Shown here in pieces: positions 1-11,308 of a stretch of DNA of 11,308 nucleotides. Each line of letters starts with the position of its first letter. The stretch's first letter is position 1. The notes under the pieces are model-generated. The model saw only the letters and a list, made by a program, of their open reading frames with translations, ran no database searches and had not been told where the DNA came from. Source of the stretch: Holosporales bacterium (GTDB lineage Bacteria; Pseudomonadota; Alphaproteobacteria; RUG11792); assembly GCA_031257415.1 (NCBI GenBank), contig JAIROR010000058.1:1-11308 (forward strand). Direction: 5' to 3'. Position numbers and translations under genes: made by a program.

Positions 1-678
1 ATAACATCCAAACGCTTTACGACCTTTATATACAGTCTTGCTAGAGTGTATGCCCTCTATATATTTACCATCCCGCCATTTGCCATCGTATACTTCTCCA
101 TTAAATAGCACAAGCACGCCTTCCCCGTGCTTTTTACCATTTGCAAATTGGCCTTCGTATACCGACCAGTCAGGATACTTAACTCTGTATGCGCCATTCA
201 GAAAATCTCCTTTCACAAAGAAAAGCCTCCCCTCACGATCGATTGTAACGCCTCCGAAGCCCACTACAATATGATTCATCGGGTCTACCGCATCGGAATT
301 ACGAACAGCCCTGTCATTTTTCCATATGCCATCGTGCACCACTTTGCCATCAGCAGATCTATATTTGCCCTCTCCTTCATATTTACCATTCGCGAAGTCG
401 CCTTCATAGATACAACCGTCAGGCCACATGAGTTTGCCTTTTCCTTCAAACACTCCACTTTTAAGTCGTCCCTTGTATACAGTTTTATCAGGATATTCAA
501 TTACGCATTCGCCATCCAGAAGAGCACAGTTATTATCATAAACTTTAGCATCAATTACATTGGCAGTTTTACATACTATATACTCTCCATGAGGTTTGTT
601 CATACCTGACACATTACTCACTGCCACTCCAAAGACCATCACCGCAACAAAACACACTAATTTAAACTTCACATTCAT
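1..678 (-). CDS. Secreted MORN-repeat protein, 3' part cut by window edge
   Basis: The frame is open from an ATG at 678 through base 1, giving 226 codons and no stop, so the C-terminus lies outside the window. Residues 1-25 look like a signal peptide: MNVKFK, then a hydrophobic stretch LVCFVAVMVFGVAV. MORN-type units (YxGxWxxGxxxGxG) follow at about 68-83 (YKGRLKSGVFEGKGKL), 91-106 (YEGDFANGKYEGEGKY), 115-122 (HDGIWKND, degenerate), 174-189 (YEGQFANGKKHGEGVL), 197-210 (YDGKWRDGKYIEGI) and 217-220. A GAGG ribosome site lies 7 bases before the ATG. MORN repeats are known as membrane or protein binding modules, common in eukaryotes and in some intracellular bacteria. Export and a host or envelope role are inference. 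The signal peptide and MORN units resemble those of the gene at 3434-4327, so the two are paralogues. The gene has its own promoter at 720-748. Confidence 0.85.
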   Translation of the reverse strand, partial: MNVKFKLVCFVAVMVFGVAVSNVSGMNKPHGEYIVCKTANVIDAKVYDNNCALLDGECVIEYPDKTVYKGRLKSGVFEGKGKLMWPDGCIYEGDFANGKYEGEGKYRSADGKVVHDGIWKNDRAVRNSDAVDPMNHIVVGFGGVTIDREGRLFFVKGDFLNGAYRVKYPDWSVYEGQFANGKKHGEGVLVLFNGEVYDGKWRDGKYIEGIHSSKTVYKGRKAFGCY

Positions 679-719: not shown

Positions 720-748
720 ATACTATCACAACTGAAATATTATTGCAA
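720..748 (-). promoter_or_regulatory. Promoter of the left MORN gene (shared promoter family, copy 1)
   Basis: On the minus strand TTGCAA (743-748) is followed by a 17-base spacer and TAGTAT (720-725). The predicted transcript start is near 713, leaving about 35 bases of leader before the ATG at 678. The spacer TAATATTTCAGTTGTGA is almost the same as in the promoters at 2465, 3343 and 4514. Confidence 0.7.
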
Positions 749-1040
749 TATAAAAGCAGCAGGCTTCTTCCGAAATCGTCAGAATAGAAGTTTGGGGAGG
801 GGAGGGGCGTGCATAAGTTCGAGACTGTCGAAATGCTTCATATCGGCCACTCTGCAGAGCATCATTCTGTCGAATAATTTCTTTTACTGCGACTCAAACA
901 ATTTACGCGAAACATCTACTGCTCAAAGATCGGTAAACATATCTACAATCGATTCCATTCAACAGCCTCCCATTCGGTTTTTAAAGTCGGTTTTTAAAGT
1001 CGGTTTTTAAAGTGGACGTAGAACTGTGTGCGCAGGATCA
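749..1040. other. Intergenic region downstream of glmU, no gene seen
   Basis: The stretch separates the end of glmU from the promoter of the left MORN gene. It holds a triplicated 13-bp repeat (975-1013), a perfect 10-bp palindrome CTCTGCAGAG (850-859), a purine-rich run near 793-807, and an inverted pair TTCGA/TCGAA near 820. A 72-codon plus-strand frame (792-1010) has neither a family resemblance nor a convincing ribosome site. I see no clear rho-independent terminator for glmU. Confidence 0.5.
975..1013. repeat. Three tandem copies of a 13-bp unit
   Basis: CGGTTTTTAAAGT occurs three times without a gap (975-987, 988-1000, 1001-1013), 28 bases beyond the glmU stop. On the transcribed minus strand it reads ACTTTAAAAACCG. 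Identical copies point to recent slippage or expansion. No function is evident. Confidence 0.9.
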
Positions 1041-2330
1041 CTAAGCAATCTCTTTCCGTGTCTTATTCTCCTGCCTCGCCCTGCCAAACGCCAGCGTTTT
1101 ATCTGGTACATCTTTTGTTATGACGCTTCCTGCAGCTATTACAGCTTCACTACCGATTTCGACCGGCGCTATGAGGGAACTGTTCGCACCGACCATTGTC
1201 TTTGATCCAATCTTCGTTTTGTGTTTCTTTCGGCCATCGTAATTGCAGGTAATGGTTCCGGCGCCTATATTTGAGTTTTCTCCCACGTCGGTATCTCCAA
1301 TATACGCAAGATGTTTCGATTTTGTTGAATTTCCGATTGTCGATCTTTTGACCTCAACAAAATTTCCTATTTCTGCATGTTCTTCGACGACAGAGTCTCG
1401 TATGACAGCAGATGGCCCAATTTTAGCGTTCTTTCCAATTACACAATTCTCAAGGTAACTAAAGGATCGTATGACCGCTCCGGCTTTAATTTTTACTCCC
1501 CCTTTTATAATGACGTTTTGCTCTATCGTCGATAACGGCTCAGCAACAGTATCATACGAGAGATAAACAGAAGGGGGATCCAGCATTGTGACCCCGTTGT
1601 TTATAAATTTATCTCGCAATCTATTTTGCATAATATCTTCGGCTATAACAAAATCCCGCGGCGTATTAATTCCTAGAAAAGATTTATAATTTTTAGCAGT
1701 TATAATATTCACGCCACTCTTTATAAACTGAAATATGTCCGTCAAATAATACTCATTTTTATCAGCGTTTAGTTTTATTTTTTCGATATTCTCCAAAAGA
1801 GCAAGAGTCTTAAATTTATAAATTCCACTATTAACAATATTATATCTCTTTTGTTCGTCCGATAAATCGTTGTATTCCACAATTCGAACATCTTCGCTGC
1901 TATCAACAAAAACTCTTCCATACTGAGAATCCAGCATATCATTTGGAATTTGCATCACAACAATTGAAACGTTGCTTGTTTCAGTATCCGCAAGAAGCCG
2001 CAAATCATCAGCCTGAATCAGCGGCGAATCCCCGCAAATTATAATCGCGGACTCGCTCTCAACAAACGGGAGAGCCGCCTTCACGGCATCTGCCGTTCCA
2101 AGAGGAGCTTTCTGAATTGCTATTTTATCCGCCAGTCTAAATTCTTCTCTTTCCTTGTATTGCTCCTGCGTAACAATTATAACGTTGCCACTATTAACAT
2201 TCCGACAGTTATTAATCACGTGACTTACAATGGAAAGACCGGCTATCTTTTTAAAGAGTTTCGAACTATTAGTCGCGCAAGAATTCATGCGTCTGCCGTT
2301 TCCGGCGGCCAGTATAATAAAATCAGTCAT
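1041..2330 (-). CDS. glmU: Bifunctional UDP-GlcNAc pyrophosphorylase / GlcN-1-P N-acetyltransferase GlmU
   Basis: GlmU acetylates glucosamine-1-phosphate with acetyl-CoA and joins the product to UTP, giving UDP-GlcNAc for peptidoglycan and LPS in the cytoplasm. The 429 residues are slightly short for the family (about 450). The N-terminal nucleotidyltransferase domain (1-225) shows LAAGNGRRM, KAPLGTADAVKAAL (74-87), the metal-binding Asp of CGDSPLI (D101) and VNSGIY (166-171). The C-terminal left-handed beta-helix (about 250-415) carries KHLAYIGD with the likely catalytic His340 and NIGAGTITCNYDG (354-366). The nucleotide-binding loop is unusual: the family pattern GxGTRM is GNGRRM, and about three extra residues precede the conserved Lys24. 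The ATG at 2330 matches the family N-terminus, with GGGAG about 11 bases before it. Part of this start region is duplicated upstream (2352-2370). A promoter of the secreted-protein type lies at 2465-2493. Confidence 0.96.
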   Translation of the reverse strand: MTDFIILAAGNGRRMNSCATNSSKLFKKIAGLSIVSHVINNCRNVNSGNVIIVTQEQYKEREEFRLADKIAIQKAPLGTADAVKAALPFVESESAIIICGDSPLIQADDLRLLADTETSNVSIVVMQIPNDMLDSQYGRVFVDSSEDVRIVEYNDLSDEQKRYNIVNSGIYKFKTLALLENIEKIKLNADKNEYYLTDIFQFIKSGVNIITAKNYKSFLGINTPRDFVIAEDIMQNRLRDKFINNGVTMLDPPSVYLSYDTVAEPLSTIEQNVIIKGGVKIKAGAVIRSFSYLENCVIGKNAKIGPSAVIRDSVVEEHAEIGNFVEVKRSTIGNSTKSKHLAYIGDTDVGENSNIGAGTITCNYDGRKKHKTKIGSKTMVGANSSLIAPVEIGSEAVIAAGSVITKDVPDKTLAFGRARQENKTRKEIA

Positions 2331-2370
2331 GCCATTGCCGCTCCCGACGACTAGTAGAATCAGTCATGCC
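2315..2370 (-). repeat. Duplicated glmU start region (19 bp, 37-bp spacing)
   Basis: The 19 bases at 2315-2333, which include the glmU ATG, recur at 2352-2370 with two differences (GGCATGACTGATTYTAYTA on the minus strand). The upstream ATG at 2367 is out of frame and opens a 14-codon reading frame ending at a TGA that overlaps the glmU start. It may be a decayed earlier start or a short leader ORF. Confidence 0.75.
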
Positions 2371-2464
2371 CACAATACACCACATCAGCATTTCATATTC
2401 CGTATACAGAAATTATAGCCCCTAATCACTGCCTCATCCACCACAAAACACACTCCATAGTACA

Positions 2465-2493
2465 ATACTATCACAACTGAAATATTACTGCAA
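2465..2493 (-). promoter_or_regulatory. Shared-family promoter upstream of glmU (copy 2)
   Basis: TTGCAG (2488-2493), a 17-base spacer and TAGTAT (2465-2470) lie on the minus strand. The core and the first bases of the leader match the copy at 720-748 closely, yet no secreted-protein gene follows. The next gene is glmU, 128 bases beyond the predicted start near 2458. It may drive glmU, or be what is left of a deleted paralogue. Confidence 0.65.
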
Positions 2494-2514
2494 TACAGAA
2501 AAAAACAACAGTGA

Positions 2515-2542
2515 GAGGAGCCTGGATAAATCGCCGCTCCTC
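2515..2542 (-). terminator. Hairpin downstream of the Lys-rich repeat gene (copy 1)
   Basis: GAGGAGC (2515-2521) pairs with GCTCCTC (2536-2542) over a 14-base loop. TGA/TCA can extend the stem past one bulged base. On the minus strand a T-rich stretch (GTTGTTTTTTT) begins several bases after the stem, so this is a plausible but atypical rho-independent terminator for 2673-3305. Copy 2 is at 3391-3418. Confidence 0.55.
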
Positions 2543-2554
2543 ATCAATTGCCGC

Positions 2555-2593
2555 TTATCCAGCAAAAACACCATTTTCCCATTCGCCACTGTA
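2555..2593 (-). pseudogene. Remnant of a MORN repeat
   Basis: On the minus strand these 13 codons read YSGEWENGVFAG followed by TAA, a typical MORN unit. The DNA closely resembles the part of the second MORN gene that encodes GQWKNGVF. An in-frame TAA lies two codons upstream, so nothing translates it now. It lies between the stop of 2673-3305 and that gene's hairpin, where a MORN C-terminus would be expected. This suggests the ancestor of 2673-3305 ended in MORN repeats. Confidence 0.65.
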
Positions 2594-2652
2594 CCCTTAC
2601 ACGACCTGTTCAGAGAATCTCCATATTAGTAATAAGCTTTATTTCCGACTAC

Positions 2653-2681
2653 TCTTGGCTCCATCAACATTTTTATTCTTT
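2653..2681 (-). repeat. Partial third copy of the 147-bp coding repeat, out of frame
   Basis: These 29 bases match the start of the two in-frame 147-bp repeats at 28 of 29 positions, but they are shifted by one base relative to the reading frame. The stop codon of 2673-3305 falls inside them. In the repeat's own frame they would encode KNKNVDGAKSSRK and then a stop. Confidence 0.75.
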
Positions 2682-3305
2682 TAACATTCCAGACATATCC
2701 TGATGCGCGTGGATCTGGCTAGTTTGAACAACTATATTGCTCTCATCTGGATCCTCCTTCTGCAACCCGCGAACTTTATCTTTTGCTACCGTTTTGCTCT
2801 GAGTATTGGGCTTTTTTCGCAATTTACTGGTTTTATTCTTGACTCCATCAACATTTTTATTCTTTGTATTTCGAACAATTATATCGCTCTCATTTGAATC
2901 CTCCTTCTGCAACCCACGAACTTTATTTTCTGCTACCATTTTGCTCTGAGTATTTGGCTCTTTTCGCAATTCACTGGTTTTATTCTTGACTCCACCAACA
3001 TTTTTATTCTTTGTAAAATCACTGATCGGACGAACAACACCAGAAATAGGCACAGGAGAAAGAACAGGAGAAAGAACAGGAGAATAACAAAGAGGAAGAG
3101 GAGAAGGCGGAGTGGAAAAAGAAGAAAAGGAATGAGAAGGAGGAGAAATAGGAGGAGAGGTGTTTGCATAACATTGCCTATCATATCCAATAGTAGTAGT
3201 AGGAATGGTTATATAATATTGTCCATTATTATATGACGCATTACCTACTGCTCCTCCAAAGACTATCACGGCGACAAGGCACACCAATCTTAATTTTGCA
3301 CTCAT
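2673..3305 (-). CDS. Secreted protein with Pro/Ser-rich region and two Lys-rich repeats
   Basis: No known domain was recognised in the 210 residues. A signal peptide (MSAKLRLVCLVAVIVFGGAV) nearly matches that of the MORN gene at 3434-4327. Residues 50-95 are rich in Pro and Ser (SPVLSPVLSPVP). Two tandem 49-residue repeats follow, 98-146 and 147-195, each beginning TKNKNV and carrying NKTS, RK, PNTQSK and KVRGLQKED. They are strongly basic with an acidic tail. The ATG at 3305 is preferred to a GTG at 3341, because the GTG lies only a few bases beyond the predicted -10 and would not be in the transcript. GAGAG lies about 8-12 bases upstream. Secretion is supported only by the signal peptide. 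Function is unknown; by position and signal sequence it is a diverged relative of the MORN proteins. Confidence 0.75.
   Translation of the reverse strand: MSAKLRLVCLVAVIVFGGAVGNASYNNGQYYITIPTTTIGYDRQCYANTSPPISPPSHSFSSFSTPPSPLPLCYSPVLSPVLSPVPISGVVRPISDFTKNKNVGGVKNKTSELRKEPNTQSKMVAENKVRGLQKEDSNESDIIVRNTKNKNVDGVKNKTSKLRKKPNTQSKTVAKDKVRGLQKEDPDESNIVVQTSQIHAHQDMSGMLKE
2721..3014 (-). repeat. Two tandem 147-bp coding repeats
   Basis: Units at 2868-3014 and 2721-2867 encode 49-residue repeats that differ at about ten residues. The length is a multiple of three, so copy number can change without breaking the frame. Confidence 0.85.
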
Positions 3306-3342
3306 TTTACGACTCTCTCTAAAAAAAACACTGCGTAACACG

Positions 3343-3371
3343 ATGTTACCACAACTGAAATATTACTGCAA
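3343..3371 (-). promoter_or_regulatory. Promoter of the Lys-rich repeat gene (shared family, copy 3)
   Basis: TTGCAG (3366-3371), a 17-base spacer TAATATTTCAGTTGTGG and TAACAT (3343-3348) lie on the minus strand. The ATG at 3305 follows about 30 bases after the predicted start. Confidence 0.7.
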
Positions 3372-3390
3372 TACTGAAAAACAACAGTGA

Positions 3391-3418
3391 GAGGAGCCTG
3401 GATAAATCGCCGCTCCTC
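3391..3418 (-). terminator. Hairpin downstream of the second MORN gene (copy 2)
   Basis: This has the same 7-bp stem GAGGAGC/GCTCCTC and the same loop as 2515-2542. It lies 16 bases beyond the stop at 3434 and just upstream of the next promoter. A GTTGTTTTT run follows on the minus strand. Hairpin plus promoter form a repeated block of about 80 bp (2465-2546 and 3343-3422). Confidence 0.55.
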
Positions 3419-3433
3419 ATCAAAGTTGTCTGT

Positions 3434-4327
3434 TTATTCCAAAGAATGAAGGAGCAGTGAGTAAAAAGAGCCAGGGACTGGGGAAGGATTCTCTAAAATG
3501 GGCTCGTCGCTTTTCCATTCACCCTCGAAGAACCTTGATTCGTCAGCAAATGTATACCTGCCCCATCCATTCCGCTTACCATATGCAAAGTAGCCTTCGT
3601 AGACACCTCCGTTAGCATATATAACTGTTCCTTTCATAAATTTACCGTCTTTCCATTCCCCATCGTATTTATTTCCATTAGGCAATACAAGCGCGAATTC
3701 GCCATTTAAAAGAGCTCCGTCTGAACCATAATGTATGTATCCGTTAGCCCTAGCCTTGACAAAAACACCATTTTTCCATTGGCCCTCGGAATACGATTTG
3801 TTGGCAAATGTATACTTGCCCCATCCATGAGGTCTACCATTCGCAAAGCAGCCTTCGTAGACATCTCCGTTGGCATACGTAACCGTTCCTTCTATAAAAT
3901 TACCACCTCCCCATCTTCCATTGTACTCAGCTCCATCAGGCAATACAAGCGCGAATTTGCCATTTAAAAGAGCTCCATCATAACACACAGGTTCGTTAGT
4001 TAGAGAATGAGAGAAAGAATAAGTGAAAGGGGGAGGAGAAAAAGAAGGAGAAAGAAGAACAGGAGAAAAAAGAACAGGAGGTCGAGAAAATTGGGCCATA
4101 AGACGAGTTTCCTCGTCTATAATAAATGCATTCTCATCAAGATCAAGATCATGAACAGTTTGTTCCACGATTGGAAGAGGAGGAAAAGAAAGATAGGAAG
4201 GAATGTCCCGCGAATTATCTCCTGTCACAATACTCGCCGCCTCTCCATTACTCGCTGCTCCTTCAAAGACCATCACGGCGACAAGGCACACCAATCTTAA
4301 TTTTGCATTTTCAAACTTTATACTCAT
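3434..4327 (-). CDS. Secreted MORN-repeat protein with two long super-repeats
   Basis: From the ATG at 4327 the protein has 297 residues. A signal peptide (about 1-25, core LRLVCLVAVMVF) is followed by an acidic segment (57-75) and a Pro/Ser-rich part (82-105). Two super-repeats follow, about 117-188 and 203-275. Each starts DGALLNG(K/E)FALVLP and contains MORN units such as VYEGCFANGRPHGWGKY and VYEGYFAYGKRNGWGRY. The tail (276-297) is not MORN-like. The start is uncertain: VKMSI is duplicated, so the ATG at 4342 is also possible, adding five residues. Both lack a good ribosome site; a strong one upstream (GGAGGAG) serves a 21-codon ORF (4311-4376) that overlaps this start, suggesting coupled translation. 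The known role of MORN units is membrane or protein binding. Secretion and a role in host or envelope interaction are inference. Confidence 0.82.
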   Translation of the reverse strand: MSIKFENAKLRLVCLVAVMVFEGAASNGEAASIVTGDNSRDIPSYLSFPPLPIVEQTVHDLDLDENAFIIDEETRLMAQFSRPPVLFSPVLLSPSFSPPPFTYSFSHSLTNEPVCYDGALLNGKFALVLPDGAEYNGRWGGGNFIEGTVTYANGDVYEGCFANGRPHGWGKYTFANKSYSEGQWKNGVFVKARANGYIHYGSDGALLNGEFALVLPNGNKYDGEWKDGKFMKGTVIYANGGVYEGYFAYGKRNGWGRYTFADESRFFEGEWKSDEPILENPSPVPGSFYSLLLHSLE

Positions 4328-4376
4328 TTTTACTATACTCATTTTTACCGCTTTCAATAAACACTTTATGATACAT
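4311..4376 (-). CDS. Possible 21-residue leader ORF overlapping the MORN gene start
   Basis: An ATG at 4376 lies 8 bases after GGAGGAG, the best ribosome binding site in this part of the window. The product would be MYHKVFIESGKNEYSKNEYK plus V. Its stop at 4311 lies inside the MORN coding sequence, past both possible MORN starts (4342 and 4327), in another frame. It could couple or attenuate translation of the MORN gene, or be a relic of a frameshifted longer N-terminus. Confidence 0.4.
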   Translation of the reverse strand: MYHKVFIESGKNEYSKNEYKV

Positions 4377-4390
4377 ATACACTTCTCCTC

Positions 4391-4474
4391 CAAAAGATTG
4401 CCAAAGAAAATACAAGTCGCCGTGGATATCTCTAGCCGTGGATATCTCTAGCCTGGAAGATCTCCAATCTTTTG
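4391..4474. repeat. Imperfect palindromic dispersed element, copy A
   Basis: CAAAAGATTG (4391-4400) and CAATCTTTTG (4465-4474) form a perfect 10-bp inverted repeat. Inside is a 16-bp tandem duplication CGTGGATATCTCTAGC (4421-4436, 4437-4452). The element lies in the leader between the promoter at 4514 and the MORN gene start. A diverged copy is at 6195-6263. Confidence 0.65.
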
Positions 4475-4513
4475 TTAATCGCGTATACTTCTCAACAAAC
4501 ACTTCTTGGCGTA

Positions 4514-4542
4514 ATATTACCACAACTAAAATATCAGTGCAA
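4514..4542 (-). promoter_or_regulatory. Promoter of the second MORN gene (shared family, copy 4)
   Basis: TTGCAC (4537-4542), a 17-base spacer TGATATTTTAGTTGTGG and TAATAT (4514-4519) lie on the minus strand. The leader to the MORN start is unusually long (about 165-180 bases) and contains the palindromic element and the short ORF. The minisatellite begins 6 bases upstream of the -35. Confidence 0.7.
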
Positions 4543-4548
4543 CATGAA

Positions 4549-4837
4549 ACAACAGAATAAAGACAACAGAATAATGACAGCAGATGGAGAGACAACAGAA
4601 TAAAGATAGCAGATAGAGAGGCAGCAGAATAAAGATAGCAGATAGAGAGGCAGCAGAATAAAGACAGCAGATAGAGAGGCAGCAGAATAAAGATAGCAGA
4701 TAGAGAGGCAGCAGAATAAAGATAGCAGATAGAGAGGCGGCAGAATAAAGACAACAGATGGAGAGGCAGCAGAATAAAGACAACAGATGGAGAGGCAGCA
4801 GAATAAAGACAACAGAATAATGACAGCAGATGGAGAG
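4549..4837. repeat. 29-bp minisatellite
   Basis: Eight full 29-bp units start at 4563, 4592, 4621, 4650, 4679, 4708, 4737 and 4766, typified by GCAGCAGAATAAAGATAGCA plus GATAGAGAG. A 14-bp partial unit begins at 4549 and another at 4795, and a last full unit spans 4809-4837. The first and last 43 bp are nearly the same sequence. Since 29 is not a multiple of three, translation cycles through frames. All three minus-strand frames stay open over much of it and would give Leu/Cys/Ser-rich hydrophobic repeats, but no start or ribosome site supports expression. Confidence 0.92.
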
Positions 4838-4850
4838 ACCTGAATGAATC

Positions 4851-4992
4851 GAGCCGGAGGTAGGGGTTAAGAACCTTTCTGGGTATCTTTCTAAGTACTC
4901 TCCTAAGTACTCTCCTAAGTACTCTCCTAAGTACTCTCCTAAGTCACCTCCTAAGTCACCTCCTAAGCCACCTCCTAAGTACTCTCCGGCTC
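4851..4992. repeat. 12-bp tandem array bounded by 9-bp inverted repeats
   Basis: Eight 12-bp units run from 4891 to 4986: CTAAGTACTCTC four times, CTAAGTCACCTC twice, CTAAGCCACCTC once, then CTAAGTACTCTC. A degenerate unit precedes them (4879-4890). The array is flanked by GAGCCGGAG (4851-4859) and its exact inverse CTCCGGCTC (4984-4992). Most units contain the palindrome AGTACT. Confidence 0.9.
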
Positions 4993-5129
4993 TATACTTC
5001 GTGTTTCTACTTCATAATACTTTCCTCTTGGCCATCATCTCGTTTGTGAAGTGAAATGAGTACATGTGTTTTAATAAAGTCCACGACCTCATATCTGGCA
5101 TGACCTCCTCTGGCATGACCCCTGCTAAA
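4993..5129. other. Region downstream of the Gly-rich gene, no gene supported
   Basis: It contains a short direct repeat TCTGGCATGACC (near 5094 and 5109). In one minus frame it is an open extension of a reading frame that overlaps the Gly-rich gene (stop at 5012). I see no terminator hairpin. Confidence 0.4.
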
Positions 5130-6023
5130 TTATCGGTGTCTTCCGCCGAGACCATGATGTCCGTTGAATTGTGGGCCTCCGCCGTATTGTTCATGACCAC
5201 CTCTGCCTCCGCCTCCGTTGAATCGTTGGCCTCCGCCGTATTGTTCATGACCACCTCTGCCTCCGCCTCCGTTGAATTGTGGGCCTCCGCCTCCGTTGAA
5301 TCGTTGGCCTCCGCCTCCGTATCGTTGTTGGCCAGGATCGGTTCCGTTAATGGAATAATTTGCTGGTGGGGGTAGGCTGTGGCCAGATCGCAGCGGTATC
5401 TGCCCACCACCAGTGGGGAAAACATTAGCAGGGCTCGCGCTCCGCCCGCCTCTACCGAGACTATTATAAGAATCGTACCCCCCGCTCTGACCCGCGACAC
5501 TACTAGCATAGGAAGTATGAGTAGGGCTCCGCCCGCCTCCACCGTATTGTTGTTGAGGTCGAGTTGGAATTACATTCTTGAAAGCGTTGACTGATTGAGT
5601 TGTTGCATTCCCGAAAGCATCGGCAACTCGTCCAAGCTTGTGCACCTTATTAGCCGCATTCCTAAATACTTCTCCATAACCATGGGACGCGATCTGATTT
5701 CTCCCGTAGACGGGGGACGCGATCTGATTTCTTTCGTAGCCAGGTCGCAGCGGTATCTGCCCACTACCAGCTCTATAACCGCTCTGACCCGCGACACTAC
5801 TAGCGTAGGGAGTATGAGCAGGGCTCGCGCTCCGCCCGCCATAACCGCTTTGACCTACAACACGAGTAGGACTCGCACCCCGCCCGCCTCCGACGAATTG
5901 CTGGTTGTAGCCACCGCCTCTGACGTGACTATAAGAATTGTACACCTCACCCCACGTCAAATTCTCTACGCTGGCAATCATCACAAGCGATGACACAGCG
6001 ACTAATAATTTACTGATTTTCAT
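5130..6023 (-). CDS. Secreted Gly-rich repetitive protein
   Basis: The 297 residues match no family I recognise. An N-terminal Lys and a hydrophobic run (MKISKLLVAVSSLVMIAS) suggest a signal peptide. The middle has two related segments: 62-92 (YGGRSASPAHTPYASSVAGQ, then GQIPLRP) and 161-213 (GGGGRSPTHTSYASSVAGQS, later GRSASPAN and GQIPLRS). ERNQIAS/GRNQIAS is repeated at 97-113. A less repetitive part (118-155, EVFRNAANKVHKLGRVADAF) may fold. The tail (235-297) is Gly-rich with units QRFNGGGG, PQFNGGGG and GRGGHEQYGG. GGGGAG lies five bases before the ATG at 6023, a strong ribosome site. The composition resembles low-complexity adhesive, cell-wall or RNA-binding sequences; no function can be assigned. 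It uses its own member of the shared promoter family. A second minus frame is open under the repeats. Confidence 0.8.
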   Translation of the reverse strand: MKISKLLVAVSSLVMIASVENLTWGEVYNSYSHVRGGGYNQQFVGGGRGASPTRVVGQSGYGGRSASPAHTPYASSVAGQSGYRAGSGQIPLRPGYERNQIASPVYGRNQIASHGYGEVFRNAANKVHKLGRVADAFGNATTQSVNAFKNVIPTRPQQQYGGGGRSPTHTSYASSVAGQSGGYDSYNSLGRGGRSASPANVFPTGGGQIPLRSGHSLPPPANYSINGTDPGQQRYGGGGQRFNGGGGPQFNGGGGRGGHEQYGGGQRFNGGGGRGGHEQYGGGPQFNGHHGLGGRHR

Positions 6024-6064
6024 AATTACTCCCCAAAATTAAACATACAAAGCACCCTACTTAT

Positions 6065-6093
6065 AATCTACCACAATTTTAAATATTGTGCAA
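6065..6093 (-). promoter_or_regulatory. Promoter of the Gly-rich gene (shared family, copy 5)
   Basis: TTGCAC (6088-6093), a 17-base spacer AATATTTAAAATTGTGG and TAGATT (6065-6070) lie on the minus strand. The leader is about 35 bases. The spacer keeps AATATTT and TTGTGG of the family but carries a one-base shift between them. Confidence 0.6.
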
Positions 6094-6177: not shown

Positions 6178-6194
6178 GGACATTGTCCAAGCGG

Positions 6195-6263
6195 CAAAAG
6201 ATTATCGAAGAATTGGCAAATTGCCATGGATATTTTTTGTCTGGGAAAATCTCCAGTCTTTTG
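6195..6263. repeat. Imperfect palindromic dispersed element, copy B
   Basis: The copy runs from CAAAAGATTA to CAGTCTTTTG and aligns with 4391-4474: most positions agree in the first 45 bases, and the last third is very similar (ATCTCCAGTCTTTTGTT). It lacks the 16-bp internal duplication. It lies upstream of ftsB. Confidence 0.6.
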
Positions 6264-11161: not shown

Positions 11162-11308
11162 AATGATCCTGGAGTAGGGGAGGGCACACAAAAATCTTTT
11201 TTGCAAAATATGAAAAAAAATGTGATGGGACATAAAAAAATAGTTGCATAATGAAAAAAAATGTGATAACCTATAAAAAGGTGGGCGGAGTTGGTTACCC
11301 TGCTTGCT
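11162..11308. other. A-rich region after plsC with direct repeats
   Basis: ATGAAAAAAAATGTGAT occurs at 11210-11226 and 11251-11267, 41 bases apart, each preceded by TTGCA. The last 28 bases are GC-richer (GGTGGGCGGAGTTGG) and run off the window; they could begin a stable RNA or a coding leader, but nothing is recognisable. Confidence 0.5.
11244..11272 (+). promoter_or_regulatory. Possible rightward promoter at window end
   Basis: TTGCAT (11244-11249), 17 bases ending TGTGA, then TAACCT (11267-11272). TATAAA at 11272-11277 is an alternative -10 at poorer spacing. It resembles the leftward shared promoters in TTGCA, spacer length and TGTGRTAAC. Confidence 0.4.

Follow-up and report, generated by a model that had tools for sequence, protein, structure and literature searches.

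A signal-peptide cassette with a conserved promoter spacer repeated before putatively secreted MORN-repeat protein genes in a Holosporales bacterium

Promoter spacers are usually taken as free sequence, and extended -10 sigma-70 promoters carry the motif TGnTATAAT. Spacer sequence and TG motifs are reported to change promoter strength (PMC8695583). Conserved promoter DNA before lipoprotein genes is described for the erp genes of Borrelia burgdorferi (ospE/ospF/elp, with the "upstream homology box"); these genes are placed on cp32 prophages, with an operator of ~145 bp upstream of the transcription start and with the proteins BpaB, EbfC and BpuR (PMC10016077, PMC9112904). The arrangement considered here, called cassette A, consists of a promoter, a leader and a signal peptide, and occurs on contig JAIROR010000058.1 of a Holosporales bacterium. 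The window is this entire contig (C14, 11,308 bases), and the genome is an assembly of 806,314 bases in 110 contigs that is 64% complete.

As in erp, one promoter, one leader and one localisation sequence stand in cassette A before many diverse mature parts; cassette A differs from erp in that its genes lie on many contigs and not on cp32, and in that conservation falls between the -35 and -10 elements. In the window the cassettes share their contig with pheS, glmU and genes for an MFS protein and an acyltransferase, which is not a cp32-prophage location, and the 20 bases upstream of the cassette A -35 are near background, the comparison across the family covering those 20 bases. Cassette A is thus erp-like in arrangement and is not a member of the erp family. 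It resembles extended -10 sigma-70 promoters in TRTG-R-TANNNT and departs from them in conserving the rest of the spacer. MORN-repeat proteins (PF02493) are matched above the curated Pfam cut-off by 12 of the 18 genes with the cassette A signal peptide, with the difference that a large set is found only here among 35 genomes of the same family (20 genera, the present genome counted in), where two or more distinct 5' cassettes precede its members.

The favoured reading, to which a probability of roughly 0.77 is given, is that the cassette, made up of promoter, leader and signal peptide, has been copied before about 18 genes, with a promoter that is read by RpoD and kept by selection within the family. 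A promoter model that uses sequence only, built from ten sites including the five of the window, returned 18 sites at E < 1e-4 in the whole 806-kb genome, ten of them training rows. In the initial annotation, a motif upstream of most genes would have counted against its proposal; the 18 sites show that this is not the case. Twelve of the sites precede genes with the same signal peptide (signal peptide A, consensus MNxKFKLGCLVAVxVLGGAVxNASA). Among the other six, four have no such gene (sites 2 and 5 of the window, C45:5373 and C39:957), one precedes a signal peptide that is cut short (C71:5792) and one precedes a protein that starts with MDAK and continues as a different, hydrophobic protein (C47:441). 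Signal peptide A was called by reading the N-terminus, and the proteins are described here as putatively secreted.

A hidden Markov model (HMM) of the signal peptide alone, trained on 12 of the genes that it matches, avoids selecting members by their promoter, and it found 18 genes in the genome. A family promoter stands before 17 of them, 15 being found by the promoter model (weakest E = 0.18) and two diverged ones by eye (C104 and C28:9119); the remaining gene, on C20, has the extended -10 only, the family -35 and spacer being absent. In 16 of these 17 promoters the -35 begins 61-82 bases ahead of the ATG, and at gene 4 of the window the distance is 215 bases. No MORN match at E 0.01 was obtained in five of the 18 genes (window gene 3, the glutamine-rich protein of C41, the short one of C82, C20 and C71:7408), and in C84 the MORN repeats and the signal peptide lie in different frames. 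A pattern with 16-base spacing matched 30 times, against 13 for its reversed form, the matches including C41 and C82, which are family members. Similarity between promoters is correlated with similarity between signal peptides (Mantel r = 0.65, 16 genes; none of 2000 permutations was as high). Since promoter and signal peptide travel together in this way and the copy at glmU is segmental, duplication explains the spread of the cassette. The cassettes mark the likely secreted set of a small-genome bacterium, which can therefore be listed from DNA alone. On C45 (G000:C45:5310-5409, L023, minus strand), where a family A promoter stands without a signal-peptide gene, a long and almost perfect hairpin comes next (-26.2 kcal/mol, z = -5.6), which may be an attenuator or a small RNA.

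In the window, the five minus-strand promoters reported by the initial annotation are all present, each having TTGCA(A/G/C), 17 bases and a TA-rich -10 (TAGTAT, TAGTAT, TAACAT, TAATAT and TAGATT), and all five match TTGC-N13-TTNTGRTANNNT with 0 mismatches. Site 1 (720..748; TTGCAA, 17 bases, TAGTAT, with the -35 beginning 70 bases before the ATG) is the predicted cassette-A promoter of MORN gene 1, site 3 (3343..3371) that of gene 3, and site 4 (4514..4542) that of MORN gene 4, where the leader is lengthened. A spacer common to four sites had also been claimed and is borne out: four of the five spacers fit TRATATTTYAGTTGTGR exactly, and the long spacer pattern with up to 3 mismatches has four matches in the window (site 5 being absent), against 0 in 200 dinucleotide shuffles, and nine sites in the whole genome, against 0 for the reversed pattern.

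Site 2 (2465..2493) is a cassette-A promoter copy without a gene of its own. A promoter does lie upstream of glmU, as had been noted, but as part of an 88% copy of the site 3 region and not as an independent glmU promoter. The segment that carries it (2445..2547, minus strand) is 88% identical over 103 columns to 3323-3423 (minus strand, with site 3), the 47 bases upstream of the -35 (2501-2547) being 100% identical between the two, and just past the duplicate a 25-base fragment (2563-2587) is 92% identical to 3760-3784 and resembles coding DNA of MORN gene 4. Judged from these alignments, site 2 probably once belonged to a tandem gene copy that has since been lost, leaving its promoter stranded ahead of glmU.

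Site 5 (6065..6093), an extended -10 promoter-like site before a glycine-rich gene, has TTGCA, the 17-base spacing, TTGTGG and AATATTT. Both of the last two had been described as kept, which is correct for their presence; AATATTT begins one base closer to the -35 and is thus out of register. On a matrix from which site 5 was left out, its spacer middle reaches -8.5 in register (P = 0.43, random cores of 76% AT) and 4.9 at the best of the shifts from -1 to +1 (P = 0.015, random cores of 84% AT), so that a shifted relation to family A may exist. Since site 5 fits only the -35 and the extended -10 in register, the argument of the initial annotation that it favours a kept regulatory role is weak.

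For comparison of the spacers, promoter positions were numbered 1-29 (-35, 1-6; spacer middle, 7-17; -10, 24-29). Over the 153 pairs of the 18 genes, mean identity was 0.61 in the spacer middle (0.33 when shuffled), 0.46 at third codon positions, 0.32 in the 20 bases upstream and 0.47 in the 15 bases after the -10. When restricted to the 47 pairs with third positions below 0.4, a cut that itself depresses the third-position figure (0.31), the middle remained at 0.57 (shuffled 0.32), with 0.31 in the upstream flank, 0.62 in the extended -10, 0.80 in the -10 and 0.39 in the stretch after it. The test on 11 non-redundant genes is fairer and gave 0.61 for the middle, 0.43 for third positions, 0.31 upstream and 0.44 downstream; the excess of the middle was 0.19 over third positions (bootstrap median; 95% 0.10-0.27), 0.30 over the upstream flank (95% 0.19-0.41) and 0.18 over the downstream one (0.07-0.28). 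Conservation extends from the -35 to about +1, and within the middle all 18 sites have A at position 9 and 17 of them have T at position 14. As the middle is kept better than both third codon positions and flanks, recent copying alone is insufficient.

The part of the spacer next to the -10 behaves otherwise than its middle. In the cassette A columns, T21 is found in 16 of 18 sites and G22 in 14 of 18, with T24, A25 and T29 in all 18, so that a TG one base before the hexamer and TANNNT, which define an extended -10, are both present, in the form TRTG-R-TANNNT at 17 bases from TTGCA. Allowing up to one mismatch, TTGC-N13-TTNTGRTANNNT matched 82 times genome-wide and its reversed form 17 times. 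Of the 82 matches, 49 were sorted into six multi-copy families (A 16, B 6, C 8, D 10, E 4, F 5); site 5 is a further one, and the remaining 32 fall outside these groups. TTGC with a TG-R-TA extended -10 is common to A, B, C and D; E differs from them at both, and F carries TTGACA. On the family A matrix, the spacer middles of families B to F obtain -7 to -17. Among 61 non-cassette genes of the stretches examined, TGNTANNNT occurred in 23, against 11.6 expected, and TTGC together with TGNTANNNT in 4, against 0.1. Because TTGTGR recurs in unrelated families and the middles of B to F do not fit, TTGTGR is, on these alignments, best read as an extended -10 element and the middle as a property of the family. 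The suggestion that an extended -10 class underlies the whole spacer accordingly accounts for TTGTGR, which recurs in other multi-copy families, and leaves the family-specific middle unexplained.

These other families show features of their own. Family C precedes secreted-looking genes on C43, where two distinct genes are seen, and on C52, where one gene and three sites are seen; the genes of G000:C43 and G000:C52 start MNKKLF..., and each contig has three conserved extended -10 promoter-like sites that belong to them. Families B and D are repeats, many of them near contig ends, and their status as promoters is putative. Family D, with copies like TTGCATAACGAAAAAAAATGTGATAACCT, is found at 11244-11272 (plus strand) of the window and on nine other contigs, and is extended -10 promoter-like; several of its copies lie near contig ends and are followed by further repeats.

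A further set of MORN genes carries a second cassette, cassette G, with a protein start like MVIRKVFLIAAVAIVPACA and a promoter like TTGACGGGCATTGCGTTATATTGTATCCT; 11 of its 13 genes were compared, C39 and C76 being left out since their frames run off the contig. Over the 55 pairs, identity was 0.62 in the spacer middle (shuffled 0.28) and 0.57 at third positions, and for the 16 pairs with third positions below 0.5 it was 0.63 against 0.45, with 0.74 in the 12 bases upstream. This suggests, from alignment, that the cassette G spacer is under constraint, less clearly than that of cassette A. On the A matrix the G spacers range from -11 to -19 when kept in register and from -1 to -9 when the best of five shifts is taken, and a single spacer for all MORN genes was therefore rejected; the difference also speaks against a single regulator acting through a single spacer motif on all MORN genes. 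Secreted MORN-repeat proteins would then form two or more sets, each with its own cassette, and it is a doubtful proposal that the spacer serves each set as its specific control site; if it does, very few regulators could suffice to switch whole sets of surface or effector proteins as one. With one paralogous cassette whose spacer is more conserved than neutral drift would leave it, and a second cassette with another spacer in the same genome, there is a natural test of spacer function.

In the mechanism considered, RNA polymerase with RpoD would take TTGCA for its -35 and TRTG-R-TANNNT for an extended -10, and the cassette would have been copied mostly before MORN-repeat genes and also before genes for other repeat-rich proteins. 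On this reading, purifying selection within family A acts on the whole promoter together with its spacer middle, which makes joint expression of the set likely. As to what holds the spacer, tuning intrinsic to the promoter comes somewhat short of an even chance, a family-specific operator is a tentative candidate, and some other cause is rather unlikely. A dedicated DNA-binding protein in the spacer (-29 to -19) that switches the whole secreted set on and off, akin to the binding site raised by the initial annotation, is possible though unlikely: it would account for a middle constrained beyond third positions and flanks, absent from the other families, and for the near-invariant positions 9 and 14. 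It has to be reconciled with the two members that have a 16-base spacer and with the lack of a repeat above the 95% null in the conserved block (best dyad 0.148 against 0.199; best direct repeat, at offset 17, 0.150 against 0.151 and so borderline). An 11-base direct repeat of the PhoB or CtrA kind was likewise not above the null. The one OmpR-type regulator found is closest to CtrA, below that model's cut-off, the search having been confined to this regulator family; the CtrA box is TTAA-N7-TTAA, and no such box was seen by eye in the column counts of the 18 sites. Recent duplication only, with spacers that lacked time to diverge, had been another proposed cause. It stands as an explanation of spread, sites 2 and 3 lying within the 88% duplicate and copies clustering on C71, C78 and the window, and is improbable for the spacer middle, given the lower identity of third positions and upstream flank in the 11-gene test.

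That the motif is simply the organism's general strong promoter is very improbable. The -35 and extended -10 do recur in other families and at site 5, and a site on C100 before a putative rph open reading frame has a middle that fits weakly (1.3, P = 0.037); but in register the A matrix gives only -7 to -19 for the middles of B to F and G, and 12 of the 18 sites below E 1e-4 stand before signal-peptide A genes. An alternative sigma factor reading cassette A promoters is hardly credible: conservation running from the -35 to about +1 would suit it, but the -35 and -10 are common to other families, and the sole Sigma70_r2 protein found in the incomplete assembly is RpoD (NF004208, 4.3e-216, above cut-off), on which basis an alternative factor of the sigma-70 type was set aside. 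Several points weigh against a promoter that is read by RpoD and constrained throughout. With a single sigma factor found, a general requirement of RNA polymerase sits poorly with the difference between the A and G spacers. The excess of the 82 matches is largely made of multi-copy repeats, the 32 others being about twice the reversed control, and the stricter TRTGNTANNNT is hardly in excess among the 61 non-cassette genes (4 against 1.9 expected). The two members with 16-base spacers were aligned through a gap placed by hand, and C20, which lacks the family spacer, was dropped as redundant from the 11-gene test and kept in the 18-gene test. Because the assembly is 64% complete, further sigma factors or regulators may be missing, the sigma factor search having covered the sigma-70 type, and the promoters are predicted from DNA.

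Among the 35 family genomes, the cassette A set has so far been seen in the present genome alone. Signal peptide A was not found at E 0.01 in any of the 34 others, and MORN matches at E 0.001 were confined to the present genome. The promoter model gave weak hits in five of the 34 (E 0.0056-0.0096, against 2.3e-10 here, with at most 150 candidates scored per genome), which were taken for chance, and a regulon kept in relatives was thus rejected. The long pattern, searched in 40 genomes, has matches in eight; outside the present genome these are about as many as for the reversed control and, among the matches listed, all have 3 mismatches. No literature on the MORN repeat in Alphaproteobacteria endosymbionts was found.

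Genes 1, 3, 4 and 5 of the window and glmU all lie on the minus strand. Gene 1 (1..678), open at the contig end, is predicted to encode a MORN-repeat protein (Pfam MORN 2.3e-18) with signal peptide A at 607..678 (HMM 3.0e-13, a training row). Downstream of site 2, glmU occupies 1041..2330 (TIGR01173 7.7e-117, above cut-off); immediately before it, a partial copy of the glmU start (2331-2368) is accompanied by a short open frame that, by eye, overlaps the glmU start codon. Gene 3 (2673..3305) has signal peptide A at 3231..3305 (HMM 5.4e-14, a training row) and a proline-rich, tandem-repeat mature part without a Pfam or NCBIfam family at E 0.01. Gene 4 (3434..4327) is predicted to encode a MORN-repeat protein (Pfam MORN 1.6e-12, on 3434-4324) with signal peptide A at 4247..4309 (HMM 1.3e-9, not a training row). 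The glycine-rich protein of gene 5 (5130..6023) has an N-terminus of another kind, no family at E 0.01, and no place among the 18 genes matched by the signal-peptide HMM. An Rfam scan gave no match within the window. An array of 29-base tandem units (4532-4850) starts at site 4 and extends upstream of it, and a dispersed palindrome-like element found by eye, CAAAAGATTG ... CAGTCTTTTGTT, lies in the long leader of gene 4 (4381-4480) and before an FtsB-like gene (6190-6260), with kin on C71 and C104.

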